From Candidatus Gastranaerophilales bacterium (GTDB taxonomy: Bacteria; Cyanobacteriota; Vampirovibrionia; Gastranaerophilales; Gastranaerophilaceae): DNA of 64,000 nucleotides. Shown here piece by piece: positions 19,547-37,493 of this stretch; the stretch's first letter is position 1, and each line of letters begins with the position of its first letter. Below the pieces are notes generated by a model. That model worked only from the letters and a program-made list of their open reading frames with translations, was not told the origin of the DNA and did no database searches. The stretch covers positions 124,001-188,000 of the forward strand of contig CALUVT010000001.1 in assembly GCA_944324345.1 (NCBI GenBank), given 5' to 3'. Both the position numbers and the translations under genes were made by a program.

Positions 19547-22417
19547 ATGTTTGGATTGCATAAAGTTGACGCTTCGACAAAAGTTAATAATAGCCAATCT
19601 GTAAATAATAAAAAATCTGCAAATAGTTATCCTCAAATAATATTTTTGGGTTCAAATGGAAAAACTTCCGTAACGAATTTTAATAAGTTTTTATGGGACA
19701 GTTACATTGACGGATTGGTTGACAAATCCTTAAAATCATTAGGAATTAAGGAATATAATTTTTCCGTATTAAAAGATGATAACACGGCAATAATGCAGTC
19801 ACAAAAACACTTGATTAATCTTTTAAAATACTATGAAGGAGATAAATATCATTACTATGAAGCTATAACCGTTCCTTATTCTGACAAATTCGGAACTTCT
19901 ACCTGTGGTTTTGGTGAAAGAACCAAAGAAATGAGAAATCAAGAAACAGCATATGAAAACTTGGTTAAACATATAGAAGAACATGCAAAATATGTTAAAA
20001 ATATACTTGGAGCAGAAACATATAATAGTCTCCCGTCTTCTATCAAAGAAGGATTAATAGATTTGTCATATAACAAAGGGCCTAAGGCAATCAGTGGAAA
20101 TCCAGAACTTAAACAGGCCATTAAAAATAAACAATACGACAAGGTTATAGAAAATCTTGTATATGTAACATCCGGAAAAAGCGGTGCATCTGAAAAATCT
20201 GATCCGGGTTTGTATCGGAGAAGTTTATCAAGGGCAATTTTGGCATCCAGAGATTTAGGCAATAACAGGAATGTTCAAAGAGTAATTGATGAAATATATA
20301 GTGATGCAAAAAACTGTCCAGGTCAGTCTATAAAAGATTTGGATAAAATATATTCGGCTTATAAAAACGGCAAAATAGATTCAAAAGCAATCTCTTGTGA
20401 ATCAGGGAAATATGAAGTTAAAAAGGGTGACACACTTTATTCAATAGCACGTCAATATTGTCCTGAAGGAGTTTCTGTTAACAGCTTAGTAAAAGAAATC
20501 GTAAGGATAAACCACAATGTAGAAACCCTTAAACCCGGATTTACAATAAATATTCCTTTGTCAATAGATGGAGAACCTTTAAAACTTGGACAAAATGAGG
20601 TTTCTCATGTTCAAAGTGTAAAGGAGAACCAATCCAGACAATCTGTAGCAAAAGTTAAAGGGAATTGTACTATTTCTGATGAGATAGAAGACTTTCATGT
20701 AGGCGAAGAATATAAAGGAAAAGGATATTTTGCTGTAGCCAGAGATATTCACAGTAAATATATAACACCTGATTTTTCAATATCAGATTTAAGTAAGAAA
20801 ATTTCTGCTTTAAATAATGGAAAACCTCTCGAAGTTGGCGATACCATAAAAATACCTGTTATAAAAAACGGTGAAGAACTATCTCAAATGCGGATCTCCG
20901 GGAGCAATAATACAAAATCAGAAGAATCACAAGTTTCAGAACCTGATGATTTAGGTATAAGTGCACCAAATCAATCGACCTCTTTAAAATCTATGATGTC
21001 TGAAATGAAATATAATGTATCTAAAGCGGGTAATACAGGATTAAATATCTTAACTTTTGATTATGTTGTACGCCAAGGTGATACTTTATATTCTATAGCT
21101 CAAAGGTACGGTATAGATGCCAAAACCTTAATGGCAAATAACAATTTATCCTCAAAATCGACAATAAAAGTCGGACAAAAAATCAAGATTAATAAAGTTG
21201 CATATAGTATAAAACGTGGAGATGTTTTAAACAAAGTTGCTGATAAATACGGTCTTAGTACATCATTTGTGCAGTCACTAAACGGAATAGAAAATGTTGA
21301 TAAAATAAAAGTTGGTGACTACATTGAAATTCCGGGTTACATATATAGTGTAAAACGTGGAGATAATGTGACAAAAATTGCTAATAATGCAGGAATTAGT
21401 CTTCAAACTTTAAAATCAGTCAATGGGTTAAAAAGTTCTGCAATTCAGCCAAATCAAAAACTATTAATTCTTTATAATGATGCTGACTACAATGTTGACG
21501 ATAGCAACCGAGAAGTTAAAATCAACGAATCCGGAAAGAAAATAGAAACCATAAAAATGGAAAAACAAGGGATTTATGCAAATCGTCCTCATTTAACAAA
21601 GACAAAAGTAAATGGTAAGGTAGTCGCAACCAGAGAAGTTTTTTATGATCCGAATATAAAGAAAGGACCTTTAAAAGGGAAAACAATAATTGTCAATGCA
21701 GGGCACGGCTTCCATCCTGACAATATCATTGATTGCGGTGTAAAAGGTCAAAAAGGCCTTGATGACGAATGGCTTATAAACTACGATAATGCAATGCGTT
21801 TAATTCAGAGATTGAAAAAACAAGGTGCTAAAGTTATTTATATTCAGGGTTATGAAGGAAAAGCTTCAAAAGGACAGGATTTGGTTAGCAAAGCAATAAG
21901 AGGCAAGAATAATAAGGCGGATTTATTTATTTCCATCCACGTAAATTCATCAAAATCTGCTAATCAGGAAGATAGAATGGATATTTTCTATCCGAGTGGT
22001 TCTGCTGATAGTAAGATATTAGCGGCGAAGTTTGAAAAAGAAATGGATGCATATGCTAAAAACAAAGATTATGCAAATTCTAAAAAATCCGGATATCAAG
22101 TTTTGAATACCGCTAAAAGTCGAAAAACCCCTTCAATATTGTGGGAAGTTGCTTTTATGAACTCTGTTGACGGAAGAAAAAAATTGAAAAATCCGAGATT
22201 AATGGATAAATATTCAGATATACTCTGTCAATCAGTTGTAGAATATTTTGGTGAGAAGGGCAAAAAATCTTATTATACTGTAAAACGAGGGGATTCCTTA
22301 GGCAAGATTGCGGAAAAATATGGTGTAACAATTGCTGAGCTTAAAGCAACTAATGATATTTCAGGGACAAATATTGATGTTGGGCAATTACTCGAAATCC
22401 CAAGTAAAAGTTCTTAA
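19547..22417 (+). CDS. Multidomain peptidoglycan hydrolase: GH24-like lysozyme, LysM repeats, amidase_3
   Basis: 956 residues. A phage-type lysozyme-like domain spans about 85-235, with the Glu in Y-E-G-D and the T-S-T-C-G-F-G loop. LysM repeats follow at about 288-337, 380-435 (weak), 504-548, 551-598 and 599-645. An N-acetylmuramoyl-L-alanine amidase of the amidase_3 type covers about 708-905: N-A-G-H-G, E-W-L-I-N and S-I-H-V-N-S give the zinc ligands, and the Glu is in L-W-E-V-A-F. A sixth LysM closes the protein at 907-953. It should bind peptidoglycan and cut both the sugar backbone and the peptide link. There is no signal peptide, so it needs another export route or lysis. An isolated gene with no phage genes beside it. 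Confidence 0.88.
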   Translation: MFGLHKVDASTKVNNSQSVNNKKSANSYPQIIFLGSNGKTSVTNFNKFLWDSYIDGLVDKSLKSLGIKEYNFSVLKDDNTAIMQSQKHLINLLKYYEGDKYHYYEAITVPYSDKFGTSTCGFGERTKEMRNQETAYENLVKHIEEHAKYVKNILGAETYNSLPSSIKEGLIDLSYNKGPKAISGNPELKQAIKNKQYDKVIENLVYVTSGKSGASEKSDPGLYRRSLSRAILASRDLGNNRNVQRVIDEIYSDAKNCPGQSIKDLDKIYSAYKNGKIDSKAISCESGKYEVKKGDTLYSIARQYCPEGVSVNSLVKEIVRINHNVETLKPGFTINIPLSIDGEPLKLGQNEVSHVQSVKENQSRQSVAKVKGNCTISDEIEDFHVGEEYKGKGYFAVARDIHSKYITPDFSISDLSKKISALNNGKPLEVGDTIKIPVIKNGEELSQMRISGSNNTKSEESQVSEPDDLGISAPNQSTSLKSMMSEMKYNVSKAGNTGLNILTFDYVVRQGDTLYSIAQRYGIDAKTLMANNNLSSKSTIKVGQKIKINKVAYSIKRGDVLNKVADKYGLSTSFVQSLNGIENVDKIKVGDYIEIPGYIYSVKRGDNVTKIANNAGISLQTLKSVNGLKSSAIQPNQKLLILYNDADYNVDDSNREVKINESGKKIETIKMEKQGIYANRPHLTKTKVNGKVVATREVFYDPNIKKGPLKGKTIIVNAGHGFHPDNIIDCGVKGQKGLDDEWLINYDNAMRLIQRLKKQGAKVIYIQGYEGKASKGQDLVSKAIRGKNNKADLFISIHVNSSKSANQEDRMDIFYPSGSADSKILAAKFEKEMDAYAKNKDYANSKKSGYQVLNTAKSRKTPSILWEVAFMNSVDGRKKLKNPRLMDKYSDILCQSVVEYFGEKGKKSYYTVKRGDSLGKIAEKYGVTIAELKATNDISGTNIDVGQLLEIPSKSS

Positions 22418-28127: not shown

Positions 28128-28772
28128 ATGACTAATTTTGTAGCACATATTGGTACGGACGAATCCGGTAAAGGAGATTTTTTTGGTCCACTGGTTATTG
28201 CAGGGGTTCTTGTTGATGAGAAAAATTCGGAATTATTCAAAAATCTCGGAATAAAAGACAGCAAAAAATTATCAGATAAAAAGATGCTGTCTTTATCAAA
28301 CGAAATTAAAAAGAATGCCCCGCATTCTATTATTATGATTTCTAATTCTAAATATAATGAACTTTACTCAAATATAGGAAATTTAAACAGACTTCTCGCC
28401 TGGGGACATGCAAGAGCAATAGAAAATATTTTGAATAATACTACTTGTGAATACGCTTTATCTGACAAATTTGGTGATGAAAGTTTGATTAAATCTGCAT
28501 TAATGAAAAATGGCAGAAGTATAAGACTTGAACAAATGTGTAAAGCAGAAAGCGATATTGCAGTAGCTGCTGCGTCCGTTCTTGCAAGGGCCGCTTTTGT
28601 CCAGAAAATGCAGTCGATGGAAACAACTTATGGTATAAAATTTCAGAAAGGCTGTTCAAACCTTGTAAAAGATGTAGCTTTTGAATTTATTAACAAGTAT
28701 GGAAAAGAAAAATTAAAAGATGTTTGCAAAACACATTTTAAAACATATAATGAAATTTTATTAAATTGTTGA
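28128..28772 (+). CDS. rnhC: Ribonuclease HIII-like, without the N-terminal domain
   Basis: 214 residues. The type 2 RNase H core opens with G-T-D-E-S-G-K-G-D-F-F-G-P-L near 9-22, whose insertion (GKGDxFGPL) marks the HIII subtype over HII. Further acidic residues of the active site are in I-K-D-S-K near 45 and E-S-D-I-A near 141. RNase HIII usually has an extra N-terminal TBP-like substrate-binding domain of about 80 residues; here the core begins at residue 9 and no longer frame exists upstream. It removes RNA from RNA-DNA hybrids. Ends with TGA. Confidence 0.85.
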   Translation: MTNFVAHIGTDESGKGDFFGPLVIAGVLVDEKNSELFKNLGIKDSKKLSDKKMLSLSNEIKKNAPHSIIMISNSKYNELYSNIGNLNRLLAWGHARAIENILNNTTCEYALSDKFGDESLIKSALMKNGRSIRLEQMCKAESDIAVAAASVLARAAFVQKMQSMETTYGIKFQKGCSNLVKDVAFEFINKYGKEKLKDVCKTHFKTYNEILLNC

Positions 28773-28841
28773 AAATTAATTAAATATAGTTTATAATAGT
28801 ATATATTTGAGGGATGTTAGAATAAGCAACGAGGTGATTTG

Positions 28842-30716
28842 ATGAAGTTTGCTAAGGATAATTTTTTACATTTTGATGGTCGTATGAATAATATTTTAGT
28901 CAGGGAAAATAAGTGTTTCTATTCTGCTTTTACCCTAGCGGAAATGATGGTAGTCATGTTGATACTAAGTATCATAATGGCAGCAATGGCTCCAGTTATG
29001 ACAACAAGAAACAAACTAGATCAATCGGCTCCTTGGTCTTGGGCAACTAATGGATCAGATGCATATTATGGCATAGGAGATGCACAAGTCGCCATGATAG
29101 GTCAAGAAGAGGTAAAGCCGACAGATGATGGGGCAAGATTAATAATCAATTCCCCATCTAGTCTCAATCATATATTGTTTAAAAACGGTGATACGACTAA
29201 TGGCCTTTTAAACATGTCAAATTATAATGTTTTTCTTGGAAAACTTTCAAATGGTCAAACAATAGGCTCTCGTTCGACAGGTTTGGGATACGATATAGCC
29301 CCAAGCGGTCCTTTCTCAGTTTCATTAGGTATTCGTTCGTCATCAAGCGGTCAGTATTCATTATCTATTGGTCGTTCTAATAGTGCAGACGACTTGGGTT
29401 CAATAGCAATTGGTTCTGTAAATACAGCAACGGCACGTAATGTTATAGCACAGGGATCCAGTAATGAAGTGTCAGGAGACTACTCAATAGCAATCGGTCA
29501 AAGTAATACTGTAAGTGGTCAGGATTCCATTGTTTTAGGTCGCAGTAATACTTTAGATACAGATAATTCAATCGGTATAGGCTTGGGAGTAACGTCTGCA
29601 GAGAATAGTATTGCAATAGGGAATTCATCTGGTGCATCAGGGAGTAGTTCAATTGCTATAGGTTCAAATGCATTAGCTTCAACATATTTATCTATAGCAA
29701 TTGGAGCTGAAGAAGTGAATGTTTCTGGAATGTATGGAGTTGCTATTGGGAGTAATGTAGATGCATTAGGAGATTCAACTATTGCGATTGGTAATAATGC
29801 AGAGTCATTGCAACCTTCAGCAGTTTCTATTGGGGATGTTACTTCTGCTGGGAATGTTTCTGCAGTTGCCATAGGTAGTGAAGCTTCTGCAAGCGACATG
29901 TACTCTATAGCGTTAGGATATTCTGTTAATGCTACTGCATATAGAGCGATTGCTATAGGGAAATCAGCTTACGCATCAGGGAAAAATTCAATAGCAATAG
30001 GCCCGCATGCTAGAGCTACTGGCGAGGGGGCTATTGCAATAGGTCAAGAAGCTTGTAGTAATATAAGTGGGAAAAAGGTTGTTTGTATCGGATATCAATC
30101 CGGCCCAGAAGAAATTTCTTTGCGAACAGAAGATAACGTTATTTATCTTGGGAATAAAGATTCTACCGTATATATCCCAGGAAGTTTAATTGTTGGTGAT
30201 AATGTTTATTTAAATTCAAAGGGATCGGGTGCAATAATTTTAAGACCAAGTAATGCTAGGACTGTTCCTATGACTCTAAGAGCGGATGATCGGAATAATT
30301 TCAATAGAAACCCAGAGTATGCTGATAACTTAAGAAAGTATCCTACAGATGTTGCATCTGATGAGCAAACTCTTTTCAATAAGTATGGCCCACAGTCCGA
30401 TCGTCGATTAAAATATGTGGGCAGCGAAAGTACATCAGGCCTTGATAAAATTCGTCAGTTGAAAGTTTTCAATTACACGTTCAAAAAAGACAAAAAGAAA
30501 GTTCCGCATGTAGGTGTTATAGCTCAAGATTTGCAAAAGGTATTCCCTAATGCAGTGAAAAAAGGTGTAGACGGATTTTTGACAATTCGTATGGAAGATA
30601 TGTTCTATGCCATGATAAATGCTATTAAAGAACTTGATTTGAGATACAGGGCACAAGAAAAACGTATTGATGAGCTTGAAGCACGCATTCAAAAACTTGA
30701 GGCAAAATTGAAATAA
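28842..30716 (+). CDS. Chimeric surface protein: type IV pilin N-terminus, YadA-like head repeats, S74 chaperone
   Basis: 624 residues from the ATG at 28842 (GAGGTGA site). Residues 27-58 are a class III signal: Y-S-A then F-T-L-A-E-M-M-V-V-M and a hydrophobic helix to about 50. A prepilin peptidase would cut after A29, leaving Phe+1 and Glu+5. Residues about 150-418 hold around 18 repeats of 14-15 residues with an S-I-A-I-G core, the left-handed beta-roll of trimeric autotransporter heads. From about 515 comes a peptidase_S74 intramolecular chaperone with the Ser-Lys dyad in S-D-R-R-L-K. A coiled coil (I-D-E-L-E-A-R-I-Q-K-L-E) ends the protein. Expected to trimerise, self-cleave at the S74 domain and sit on the cell surface. 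A terminator follows. Confidence 0.88.
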   Translation: MKFAKDNFLHFDGRMNNILVRENKCFYSAFTLAEMMVVMLILSIIMAAMAPVMTTRNKLDQSAPWSWATNGSDAYYGIGDAQVAMIGQEEVKPTDDGARLIINSPSSLNHILFKNGDTTNGLLNMSNYNVFLGKLSNGQTIGSRSTGLGYDIAPSGPFSVSLGIRSSSSGQYSLSIGRSNSADDLGSIAIGSVNTATARNVIAQGSSNEVSGDYSIAIGQSNTVSGQDSIVLGRSNTLDTDNSIGIGLGVTSAENSIAIGNSSGASGSSSIAIGSNALASTYLSIAIGAEEVNVSGMYGVAIGSNVDALGDSTIAIGNNAESLQPSAVSIGDVTSAGNVSAVAIGSEASASDMYSIALGYSVNATAYRAIAIGKSAYASGKNSIAIGPHARATGEGAIAIGQEACSNISGKKVVCIGYQSGPEEISLRTEDNVIYLGNKDSTVYIPGSLIVGDNVYLNSKGSGAIILRPSNARTVPMTLRADDRNNFNRNPEYADNLRKYPTDVASDEQTLFNKYGPQSDRRLKYVGSESTSGLDKIRQLKVFNYTFKKDKKKVPHVGVIAQDLQKVFPNAVKKGVDGFLTIRMEDMFYAMINAIKELDLRYRAQEKRIDELEARIQKLEAKLK

Positions 30717-30744: not shown

Positions 30745-30768
30745 ACCGCATGAAAATGCGGTTTTTTA
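30745..30768 (+). terminator. Rho-independent terminator after the chimeric adhesin gene
   Basis: ACCGCAT-GAAA-ATGCGGT stem-loop (30745-30762) followed by TTTTTT. It separates the adhesin gene from the motor operon, so the two are transcribed apart. Confidence 0.88.
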
Positions 30769-30827: not shown

Positions 30828-31733
30828 ATGAATTTAGTGCACATTTTTACGGATATTCCAATTCTTATTGTAATATTTACTTTTTTGTTTTCAATTGCTT
30901 ACTGTATGAAAAATTATATTTTTGTCAGTAAAAATTTGAAAATTTTATTAGCATTTATTTCAAGGTTTAAAAAAACAGATTTGAACTTCAGGTTCAAGGA
31001 AATTGACGAGTGGATGAGCATAAATCCTTATGTTTCTGCTGCTTGGTTGGAGTTTAAAAACACTCTTGTTTTTTCTGAATCTGTTGCACTAAAAGGTAAA
31101 AATAACGATTTGACTTACAAAGAGGTATCTTCGACTGTTCAAAATATCCAAACAACAGTTGATCCTTTGTACTTTTTTAATGAAGAAACTCTTATTACTT
31201 CGAAATTTAACAACAAGTTTTTGCAAACTGTGCCTACTATATTAACAGGTTTTGGACCTTTATTTACTTTCTTAAACATTGCAATTGCGTTTGGGAAAAT
31301 TGATTTTTCATCTCAAGAAAAAACAATTGCCTCTGTTGCGGGTTTGATGTCGAGCATGCAGACAGCTGCACTTGTTTCAGTTATTGCGGTTGGTTCTTCT
31401 CTTATATTCTTAATGTTTGAAAGAATTTCTTTCCAGCTTTTGTGTAAAAGACCTTTATCAGCTTGCGAAGATATAATGGGCAAGCTTTTTGATAATATTT
31501 CATCGGAGAAATTCTTACTTGAGCTTTTGAAAGAAACAAAAATTCAAAATAATTCAATATCAAATCTTATTACTGCAATGCCTCAACAATTTAAAGTAGC
31601 ATTGAATTCAGGAATTGCGAGTAATCTTGTCCCTTATCTTGAAAACCTCATATTTGGTATAAATCAAATGAACAAACACATGAAGGAAGTTGCCAAGAAA
31701 AGTGGAGGCGATGATGTTGATGATTTGTTCTAA
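30828..31733 (+). CDS. MotA/TolQ/ExbB-like proton channel protein, ZorA-like
   Basis: 301 residues from the ATG at 30828 (GGAGAG site); an upstream frame start at 30750 lies inside a terminator and is rejected. Transmembrane segments appear near 8-27, 140-165 (P-T-I-L-T-G-F-G-P-L-F-T-F-L) and 185-212 (A-A-L-V-S-V-I-A-V-G-S-S-L-I-F-L). The G-F-G-P-L-F-T-F-L and A-G-L-M-S-S-M-Q-T-A-A-L stretches are those of the MotA/ZorA superfamily pore helices. A cytoplasmic loop of about 100 residues lies between helices 1 and 2. The C-terminal tail is about 90 residues, much shorter than that of Zorya ZorA (several hundred). It forms a pair with the next gene, 18 bases on. Confidence 0.8.
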   Translation: MNLVHIFTDIPILIVIFTFLFSIAYCMKNYIFVSKNLKILLAFISRFKKTDLNFRFKEIDEWMSINPYVSAAWLEFKNTLVFSESVALKGKNNDLTYKEVSSTVQNIQTTVDPLYFFNEETLITSKFNNKFLQTVPTILTGFGPLFTFLNIAIAFGKIDFSSQEKTIASVAGLMSSMQTAALVSVIAVGSSLIFLMFERISFQLLCKRPLSACEDIMGKLFDNISSEKFLLELLKETKIQNNSISNLITAMPQQFKVALNSGIASNLVPYLENLIFGINQMNKHMKEVAKKSGGDDVDDLF

Positions 31734-31751
31734 CTATGAAGGGACGGGTAA

Positions 31752-32450
31752 ATGTCTTTAATGCTTAGAAAAACTTCTCAAGCGGAAGGTGATAACAATA
31801 TATTCTGGACTACTATGGCAGATTTGTTATTAGGTCTGGCTATTATTTTTATGACATTGTTTGTTCTTGCAATGACAGGTTTTACCCAGCAAACGTTAGA
31901 ACAGAAAAGGCACCAGATTGAGGTTAATAAGGAATTGATTGAAAATCTCAAAAAAGCTAATATAGAAGCTGAAGTTGATCCTATGACAGGTGATATAAAA
32001 ATTTCTGACTTGGAGTTGTTTGAGGTTGGCAGTTACAATCTTTCTTCTAAAGGTAAAAATTATTTGGATAAACTTGTTCCGATATATATAAATACTATAT
32101 TTTCTAAGAGTGAATTAATTGATGAAATAGAGAATATTATAATACAAGGTCATACAGACAGTCAGTCCTTTTCGGGGGTCAAAAATCCTGATGTTCAATA
32201 TTTGAAAAATATGGAACTAAGTTTGCAAAGGGCAAATTCTGTTGCGTCATATATGTTTAATACGAATATTGATAAGCAGTATAATAATAAATTAAAAAAG
32301 ATGCTTGTTGTTGAGGGTAAGAGCTATTCGGAACCTGTTTTGGTTAATGGGAAAGAGGATTATAACAAGAGCAGACGTGTTGAATTGCGTTTAAAAGTTA
32401 AGAAAATGGATATAACGGATATTATTTTTGGTGAGATACAGCATTTATGA
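31752..32450 (+). CDS. MotB/ZorB-like stator partner with OmpA domain
   Basis: 232 residues. One transmembrane helix near 19-42 contains the likely proton-carrying Asp in M-A-D-L-L-L-G-L. After a short coiled-coil linker comes an OmpA/MotB peptidoglycan-binding domain (about 90-220): [10 protein letters not shown] near 131, L-S-L-Q-R-A-N-S-V near 155 and S-R-R-V-E-L-R near 209. With the preceding gene it should make a 5:2 stator that turns proton flow into movement across the periplasm. Its TGA overlaps the start of the UPF0210 gene by 4 bases. Confidence 0.85.
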
Positions 32451-36303: not shown

Positions 36304-36341
36304 AATTTTTATCGTGTTTATTAATGTGGAGAATGTACATA

Positions 36342-37493
36342 ATGGATTTTAAACAGTCTTTAATATTGAGTAGCATAATCATTCTGGGAATAGTCGGGAT
36401 ATTTACGGGTTATTTAGTTTATCAAAATAATGTAAAAATTCATAGGGATTTTGTTGCAGCACAAGATGCTTTTAGAAATGCTGATCTTCAGCAAGCTGAA
36501 AGACTTTTGCAAGATGAGCCGCCGCGAGATATAGCTCGAGATTTTTATATTCTTAAATACAACGTGCAGATAAATTCAAATAAAATCTATCAGGCTGAAG
36601 AAACCTGTTTTAAGCTTTTGAAGTTAAACCAGAAAGATGCCTTTAGCAATTACTTATTGAGTTTAATATATTACAATTTAGGTGATAGTGATAAGACGGA
36701 ACTATATTTAAAAAATGCTGTAAAGTATTCTCCTGACAACGTTGATTACAAAATCGCTCTTGCAAATTTTTATGCAAATACCGGTAAAGATGATGAAGCT
36801 ATAAATTTATTTTTGGAGTTAAAAGAGCTAATTCCCGGTTATGAAGTAGCTTGGGCGACTATTGCCACGATTTATGAAAACAAAGGCGATTATGATAATG
36901 CGTTAAAATTCAGAAAAGAAGCTGCAGAAAAATTTAGCGATAACTCCTATGATCTTTATATGTTAGCTGCTTTGTATAATAAAATGGGGAAAAAAGATTT
37001 GGCAGCCGAATACTATGCAAAAACGGCAAAATTAGATACGCAAGGAAATACCGATGCGAAGTCTAAATATTTTGAAATAACGGGAAAGCCTTATCATAGT
37101 GCTCCTCAATTTAAAAATGAGAGTATTCCATATCAAAATGTAAATGGTTTGATGTTAGTAAATGTTTCTGTTAACGGTATTCCCGCAAGATTTTTAATTG
37201 ATACCGGGGCCTCAACTTCAGTTGTTTATGCAAATTTTCTCAAGAATAAGCATATCCCTGTAAAAACTAACATATTTGGGATTTCTCAGTCTGCAAACGG
37301 AACAAAAACTGTTACTCCGGTTGTAAATTTGAATATAAAGTTAGGAAGTCATGAATTTAAAGACTTAAAAACGTTTGTTATGCCTGTAGAAAATAAGGCA
37401 TTTGATGGAATTATAGGCACAGATATTCTTCAAAAACTTGATTACTACGCAGATCGACAAAGACAAATCATAACCGTAAGAAGTCTGGATTAA
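36342..37493 (+). CDS. Membrane-anchored TPR protein with a retropepsin-like aspartic protease domain
   Basis: 383 residues from the ATG at 36342, about 10 bases after GGAG; in-frame ATGs at 36324 and 36333 are less well placed. An N-terminal membrane anchor at about 5-26 is followed by four to five TPR-like hairpins (about 35-230: N-Y-L-L-S-L-I-Y-Y-N-L-G, V-A-W-A-T-I-A-T-I-Y). A single-domain aspartyl protease then spans 265-380 with the catalytic F-L-I-D-T-G-A-S-T near 284-292 and the flap/closing I-I-G-T-D-I-L near 358. This is the bacterial clan AA type, active as a dimer. Domain faces the periplasm if the anchor is N-in. Substrate unknown. Confidence 0.85.
   Translation: MDFKQSLILSSIIILGIVGIFTGYLVYQNNVKIHRDFVAAQDAFRNADLQQAERLLQDEPPRDIARDFYILKYNVQINSNKIYQAEETCFKLLKLNQKDAFSNYLLSLIYYNLGDSDKTELYLKNAVKYSPDNVDYKIALANFYANTGKDDEAINLFLELKELIPGYEVAWATIATIYENKGDYDNALKFRKEAAEKFSDNSYDLYMLAALYNKMGKKDLAAEYYAKTAKLDTQGNTDAKSKYFEITGKPYHSAPQFKNESIPYQNVNGLMLVNVSVNGIPARFLIDTGASTSVVYANFLKNKHIPVKTNIFGISQSANGTKTVTPVVNLNIKLGSHEFKDLKTFVMPVENKAFDGIIGTDILQKLDYYADRQRQIITVRSLD

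Follow-up and report, generated by a model that had tools for sequence, protein, structure and literature searches.

A single gene in the window, by which we mean the whole 64,000-nucleotide stretch of Ca. Gastranaerophilales DNA analyzed here, encodes a protein of 624 amino acids that is probably a modular minor pilin, with a YadA-type head trimerized by a self-removing Peptidase_S74 domain and displayed on a type IV pilus, most likely at the tip. Judging from sequence comparisons and a structural model, we give this reading a probability of about 0.6. The preliminary description of this DNA had placed a prepilin site and pilin helix, a YadA-like head, and an S74 domain in one chain, and all three parts were found with Pfam: N_methyl at residues 28–49, just over the cut-off (5.8e-5, 22.9 bits versus 21.2), YadA_head in six stretches (7.6e-29), and Peptidase_S74 at residues 519–573 (6.2e-16, 58.9 bits versus 22). 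The gene and its parts are arranged as follows, in window coordinates.

28769–28797, + strand: sigma-70-like promoter match TTGAAA-17-TATAAT, 11/12 consensus positions (a consensus match only)
28842–30716, + strand: coding sequence, 624 amino acids, comprising prepilin, connector, YadA-type head, neck, S74 chaperone, and coiled coil
28842–28928, + strand: prepilin leader M1–A29, with the predicted PilD cut before F30 (N_methyl match)
28929–29006, + strand: pilin alpha1-N helix, residues 30–55, with Glu5 = E34 and Pro22 = P51 (helix 32–55 in the AF2 model)
29007–29315, + strand: beta-rich conserved connector, residues 56–158, with invariant Trp65 (no PDB match)
29316–30092, + strand: YadA-type left-handed beta-roll head, residues 159–417, 19–20 coils of 14 residues
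30093–30395, + strand: neck or stalk upstream of the cleavage site, residues 418–518 (low-confidence model)
30396–30413, + strand: predicted autocleavage site between Q518 and S519, with the dyad S519 (30396–30398) and K524 (30411–30413) in SDRRLK
30396–30596, + strand: Peptidase_S74/ICA intramolecular chaperone domain (PF13884, 6.2e-16)
30591–30713, + strand: C-terminal helix, residues 584–623, presumed to form a trimeric coiled coil as in MyRF (AF2 helix)
30745–30762, + strand: intrinsic-terminator-like hairpin with a T run

The ATG start is preceded by GAGGTG, a ribosome-binding-like site, and because the gene has its own promoter-like match and terminator-like hairpin, it appears to be monocistronic. 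Right after it (window 30828–32450) lies a MotA/ZorA-like and MotB/ZorB-like pair (PADLOC ZorB1 2.2e-52 and ZorA1 2.8e-20, with NCBIfam scores below its cut-offs), an orphan ZorAB-like motor for which no ZorC/D/E-like partner was noticed in the surrounding ORFs that were read. Two further genes of the window were noted: a 956-residue two-enzyme wall hydrolase (19547–22417) with a phage-lysozyme-type domain, five LysM domains, and an Amidase_3 domain, and a retropepsin-like aspartyl protease domain fused to TPR repeats (36324–37493).

The head had initially been described as about 18 repeats of 14–15 residues. The repeats themselves stand, with the count revised to 19–20 coils and the spacing to exactly 14 residues in almost all cases: residues 159–413 contain 20 motif matches, two of which overlap, giving 19 coils. 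When the head sequence was shuffled 2000 times, the mean number of matches was 1.2 and the maximum was 6. In the AF2 monomer model, the pLDDT exceeded 90 across most of residues 220–420, and the solved structures nearest to the modeled head in a PDB comparison were the heads of trimeric adhesins: BpaC (Z 29.2, 306 aligned, rmsd 10.0), UspA1 (Z 21.1, 228 aligned, rmsd 2.1), CbpF (Z 18.0, 146 aligned, rmsd 1.3), BoaA (Z 17.1, 126 aligned, rmsd 1.8), and YadA (Z 15.2, 158 aligned, rmsd 2.6). Left-handed-solenoid enzymes, GlmU and LpxD for example, ranked below the adhesins, with Z values under 10. The predicted beta-roll fold, on which the preliminary description had made its proposal depend, is thus supported by both the monomer model and the adhesin matches. 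Two proteins of other kinds were interspersed among the adhesins, a subunit of curli at Z 17.0 and an ice-binding protein at Z 13.0, so the head fold alone is no proof of trimerization.

The case for a trimer comes from the other end of the chain. The last 106 residues consist of the S74 domain and the helix at 584–623, and the sequence matches of this part in the PDB were the ICA of MyRF and a tail fiber. MyRF is cleaved between P586 and S587, and its dyad S587/K592 equals S911/K916 of endoNF (PMC8326128); the MyRF dyad is active only in the trimer (PMC8326128; PMC3742443). The Ser-Lys dyad claimed for the present protein proved to be S519/K524, five residues apart as in MyRF and endoNF (PMC8326128), and on the strength of this identical spacing, cleavage is predicted between Q518 and S519. 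By analogy with the S74 domain family, therefore, the 624-residue protein would be expected to trimerize and to cut itself. The S74 domain and the neck were modeled with low confidence in the monomer, as one would expect if they fold only as a trimer. Across 74 prepilin-S74 proteins, Ser519, Asp520, Arg522 (S+3), and Lys524 (S+5) are invariant, as are Gly558, Ala561, and Gln562. This invariance of the dyad is not automatic, since the Ser/Lys-type pattern is kept in only 50/89 viral S74 ORFs; truncated or divergent viral ORFs may account for part of that lower retention.

At the N-terminus, the class III prepilin signal has its cleavage point between A29 and F30 and the Glu5 residue at E34. E34 and Trp65 are invariant in the same 74 proteins, and P51 (Pro22) is invariant in the 64 sequences that were aligned, whereas the leader varies widely in length among the S74 prepilins of the order. 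The N-terminal model, which was built on these 64 sequences and covers 130 residues from A29, shows a helix of 23 residues (about 4–26) followed by the beta-rich connector, for which the comparison with the PDB gave neither a match nor a recognizable pilin globular domain. In many of the genome's other prepilins, no Pro or Gly interrupts the helix before about residue 55, so the second half of the pilin helix (alpha1-C) seems to have been lost from the S74 prepilins. With that half missing and a connector that matches no pilin fold, the usual packing inside a filament is doubtful.

The genome (1.76 Mb, 99.9% complete) encodes the pilus machinery that the originally proposed export route presupposes: a secretin gene, after which come genes for a PilB-type ATPase carrying MshEN domains and for a PilC-type protein. 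It also encodes a PilT-like ATPase and a prepilin peptidase, PilD, that is bifunctional (A24 plus its N-terminal domain). An outer membrane is expected from two Omp85-family genes. The statement that the C-terminal barrel usual for trimeric adhesins is missing also held, since YadA_anchor had no Pfam match in the protein and none over the cut-off in the genome; the usual trimeric-autotransporter exit is therefore absent for this head. The weak YadA_anchor match that the genome does contain was rejected, being pyruvate kinase. The S74 gene lies outside the pilus operon, and it is one of many with a prepilin-type start: the genome has 68 N_methyl matches, most of them in open frames of 200–300 residues, and in many the helix is long and classical. 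This is far beyond the needs of one pilus, and some of the prepilin-like signals may serve other ends.

These features bear on the main rival reading, according to which the prepilin start is a mere PilD-processed inner-membrane anchor, and the needle would remain in the periplasm or leave by some other route without being a pilus subunit. The short alpha1 helix, the connector with no PDB match and no recognizable pilin globular domain, the position of the gene outside the pilus operon, and the 68 prepilin-type genes all agree with such an anchor. In known pilins, Glu5 is required for uptake into the pilus and not for cutting by PilD, and its invariance in all 74 proteins argues for a pilin, as does a family f7 operon in which three S74 prepilins occur with a small prepilin, as with minor-pilin genes. 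Moreover, a variable adhesin-type head makes most sense outside the cell. We regard the anchor as possible but on the unlikely side.

The variability of the head is apparent within the genome itself. A paralogue of the same build occurs about 59 kb away on the same contig (C1:211965-213554). Between the two proteins, the leader (residues 1–25) is 28% identical and residues 26–125 are about 96% identical; the helix, connector, and S74 domain as a whole share about 96–97% identity, whereas the heads form a mosaic of 12–88% identity with a near-identical island at 226–275. In the stretch L158 6834-12929, the paralogue lies just upstream of flagellar-looking fliN/fliP/fliQ/fliR genes, as judged by eye from the translations. 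In the multi-copy genomes G042, G045, and G146, the helix/connector and S74 parts are on average closer within a genome than between genomes, and S74 prepilin copies from one genome group together in the tree. The pattern fits a head that varies freely, together with either gene conversion acting on the ends or an expansion that is recent. Constant ends with diverging heads look like the diversification of a surface ligand.

Other members of the order keep several distinct S74 prepilins side by side. In genus g6 there are three types from separate clades, two encoded by adjacent genes and one by a convergent gene. Tandem triplets encoding distinct S74 prepilins occur in families f6 and f7 (L219 610-5086; L220 767-4184; L221 994-4923), with genes that overlap by a few bases or nearly abut. 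In the f7 triplet (L219), a small prepilin comes next after the three S74 prepilins in one operon, an arrangement that resembles a minor-pilin operon. Given these triplet operons, a mixed trimer is possible.

In the mechanism that we propose, the class III signal would insert the chain into the inner membrane so that its C-terminus faces the periplasm, and PilD would cut after A29, as suggested by the prepilin signal and the presence of PilD in the genome. Three S74 domains and their coiled coils would then meet and set three chains in register, allowing their 14-residue coils to wind into a trimeric left-handed beta-roll. Within the trimer, S519 and K524 would cut between Q518 and S519, freeing the 106-residue chaperone. 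The type IV pilus machinery would incorporate the mature trimer, three alpha1-N helices under one rigid needle, as a minor component that most likely sits at the tip, and the trimer would pass the secretin and act as a variable adhesin. Uptake and display by the pilus are the least certain step. A tip-cap position would suit three helices under one needle, as modeled for TcpB (PMC9565799), and a position in the body of the filament is unlikely for a rigid trimer.

Two extensions of this mechanism seem doubtful, to about the same degree. As a sub-variant, the different S74 prepilins of one cell could assemble into hetero-trimers and hence into a mixed tip complex. The near-identical S74 domains of the two genes in the present genome and the maintenance of three distinct S74 prepilins in f6 and f7 (in tandem) and in g6 would be consistent with this, but many genomes have a single S74 gene, where only a homotrimer is possible, and MyRF and the endosialidase form homotrimers (PMC3742443). 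Alternatively, the S74 chaperone might build the pilus tip as such: a homo- or heterotrimer of one or three co-translated kinds of S74 prepilin would be locked together in the inner membrane, cut free, and seed the filament, so that a phage-type chaperone would do the job of the GspI-J-K or CofB complexes.

The combination of a prepilin with an S74 domain has been reported before. It is among the 15 commonest modular-pilin architectures, in a catalogue of 264 modular type IV pilin architectures, and was taken to carry a peptidase module (Raynaud 2021, PMC8179133). Trimeric tip minor pilins are likewise established (CofB and TcpB; PMC9565799), so the novelty that the preliminary description ascribed to joining a pilin with S74 and to building a trimeric surface fiber by this route was too strong. 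The 2021 reading itself, a pilin bearing an active peptidase effector, follows from the listing of IPR030392 as peptidase activity (PMC8179133), but in the S74 domains studied to date, the cleavage is a single cut in the domain's own chain, made once the trimer has formed (PMC3742443, PMC8326128), and in nearly all members the domain sits after the repeat head and ends in a helix, presumably a coiled coil. We therefore consider an effector role highly improbable.

Across the order Gastranaerophilales, S74 was found in 99/192 genomes and 21/45 genera. The S74 genes of the present genome number exactly two, each built from prepilin, YadA head, and S74, and all YadA_head matches of the genome fall in them. 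In the first set of relatives, comprising 79 S74 ORFs, the prepilin motif with Glu5 was present in 72/72 of the 5'-complete ORFs; the other 7 are cut at the 5' end by a locus or contig border, and the two for which only the chosen locus border is responsible carry the motif when extended. In families f1, f6, and f7, every 5'-complete, unbroken S74 ORF that was read has a prepilin start, including three f6/f7 ORFs whose prepilin start reads FSLIEA. One ORF that seemed to have no prepilin (L182 593-1888) was rejected as an exception: its head contains a frameshift, a prepilin start lies just upstream in the other frame, and the same genome also has intact S74 prepilin copies. The sole exception is a phage-like S74 ORF without a prepilin start (L222) in an f4 bin with 7% contamination. 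When 74 members were searched with Pfam, S74 was detected in 74/74, N_methyl in 69/74, and YadA_head in 21/74, and NTAIG-like repeats exceeded those of each protein's own shuffles in 67/74. The N_methyl figure is not independent because the 74 were chosen by the prepilin motif; the 72/72 count is. On the ORFs read, the combination of prepilin, head, and S74 is thus the rule in the order. No prepilin start was found among the S74 ORFs recovered from other (photosynthetic) Cyanobacteriota, and a match from Saprospiraceae (L094) was set aside because its signal peptide looks ordinary and the prepilin motif is missing. A phage tail fiber or prophage remnant with a chance hydrophobic start helix is the least probable reading: the S74 domain and portions of the head match phage tail-fiber families, but at <60% identity, the neighbors are chromosomal housekeeping genes with no adjoining phage structural genes, and none of the 68 5'-complete viral S74 ORFs has a prepilin start.

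The protein as we read it, a trimeric pilin with a removable chaperone, shares features with several known systems. Like PilB and PilC of Streptococcus sanguinis, it joins a large non-pilin module, which the filament would present, to a class III signal and alpha1-N (PMC8179133). In the S. sanguinis PilB, the pilin module is full and the additional domain is a folded vWA, whereas here a short helix carries a repeat-head module, and S74 would be a folding helper expected to leave rather than an effector. As in CofB and TcpB, three chains with three N-terminal helices would form a trimeric beta-rich tip, a likeness proposed here from the literature only; for these type IVb proteins, no S74 is described, they trimerize by their own beta domains, and their pilin domain is predicted to be complete (PMC9565799). 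The head repeats and fold are those of the trimeric autotransporter adhesins YadA, BpaC, UspA1, and CbpF, but there is no C-terminal anchor barrel, for which the inner-membrane and pilus route would substitute. With endosialidase tail spikes and MyRF, the protein shares the Ser-Lys pair five residues apart, the C-terminal helix, and a beta-helical upstream neighbor (PMC3742443, PMC8326128), and its Arg at +3 corresponds to R590 of MyRF (PMC8326128). In MyRF, the helper stays in the endoplasmic reticulum membrane, whereas in the present protein it is the passenger that would stay anchored and the helper that would leave. Compared through the literature, PilV of IncI plasmids with a shufflon is also a minor pilin whose N-terminal part is constant and whose adhesive end varies (PMC9045228). 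PilV varies by site-specific inversion of its 3' end (PMC9045228), whereas in the S74 prepilins it is the middle that differs from one whole-gene copy to another, flanked by ends that stay constant.

In the open literature, with subscription papers mostly outside the scope, our searches brought up no study of S74 pilins as trimers and none of S74 pilins in Gastranaerophilales. As far as we could find there, the following are new: a YadA-type head in the prepilin and S74 context, the invariance of the dyad, the occurrence of S74 almost only in prepilins in three families of the order, the pattern of constant ends and variable heads, the short helix with a connector of its own, and the triplet operons. 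If the proposed reading is true, the pilus route gives a large group of gut bacteria a way to export trimeric adhesin needles, aided by a self-removing helper, where an outer-membrane barrel is used elsewhere. The published interpretation would then be corrected, with S74 being an assembly chaperone that marks a pilin as trimeric rather than a peptidase effector. The constant ends and variable head point to a family of surface ligands that is diversifying in host-associated, mostly uncultured bacteria.
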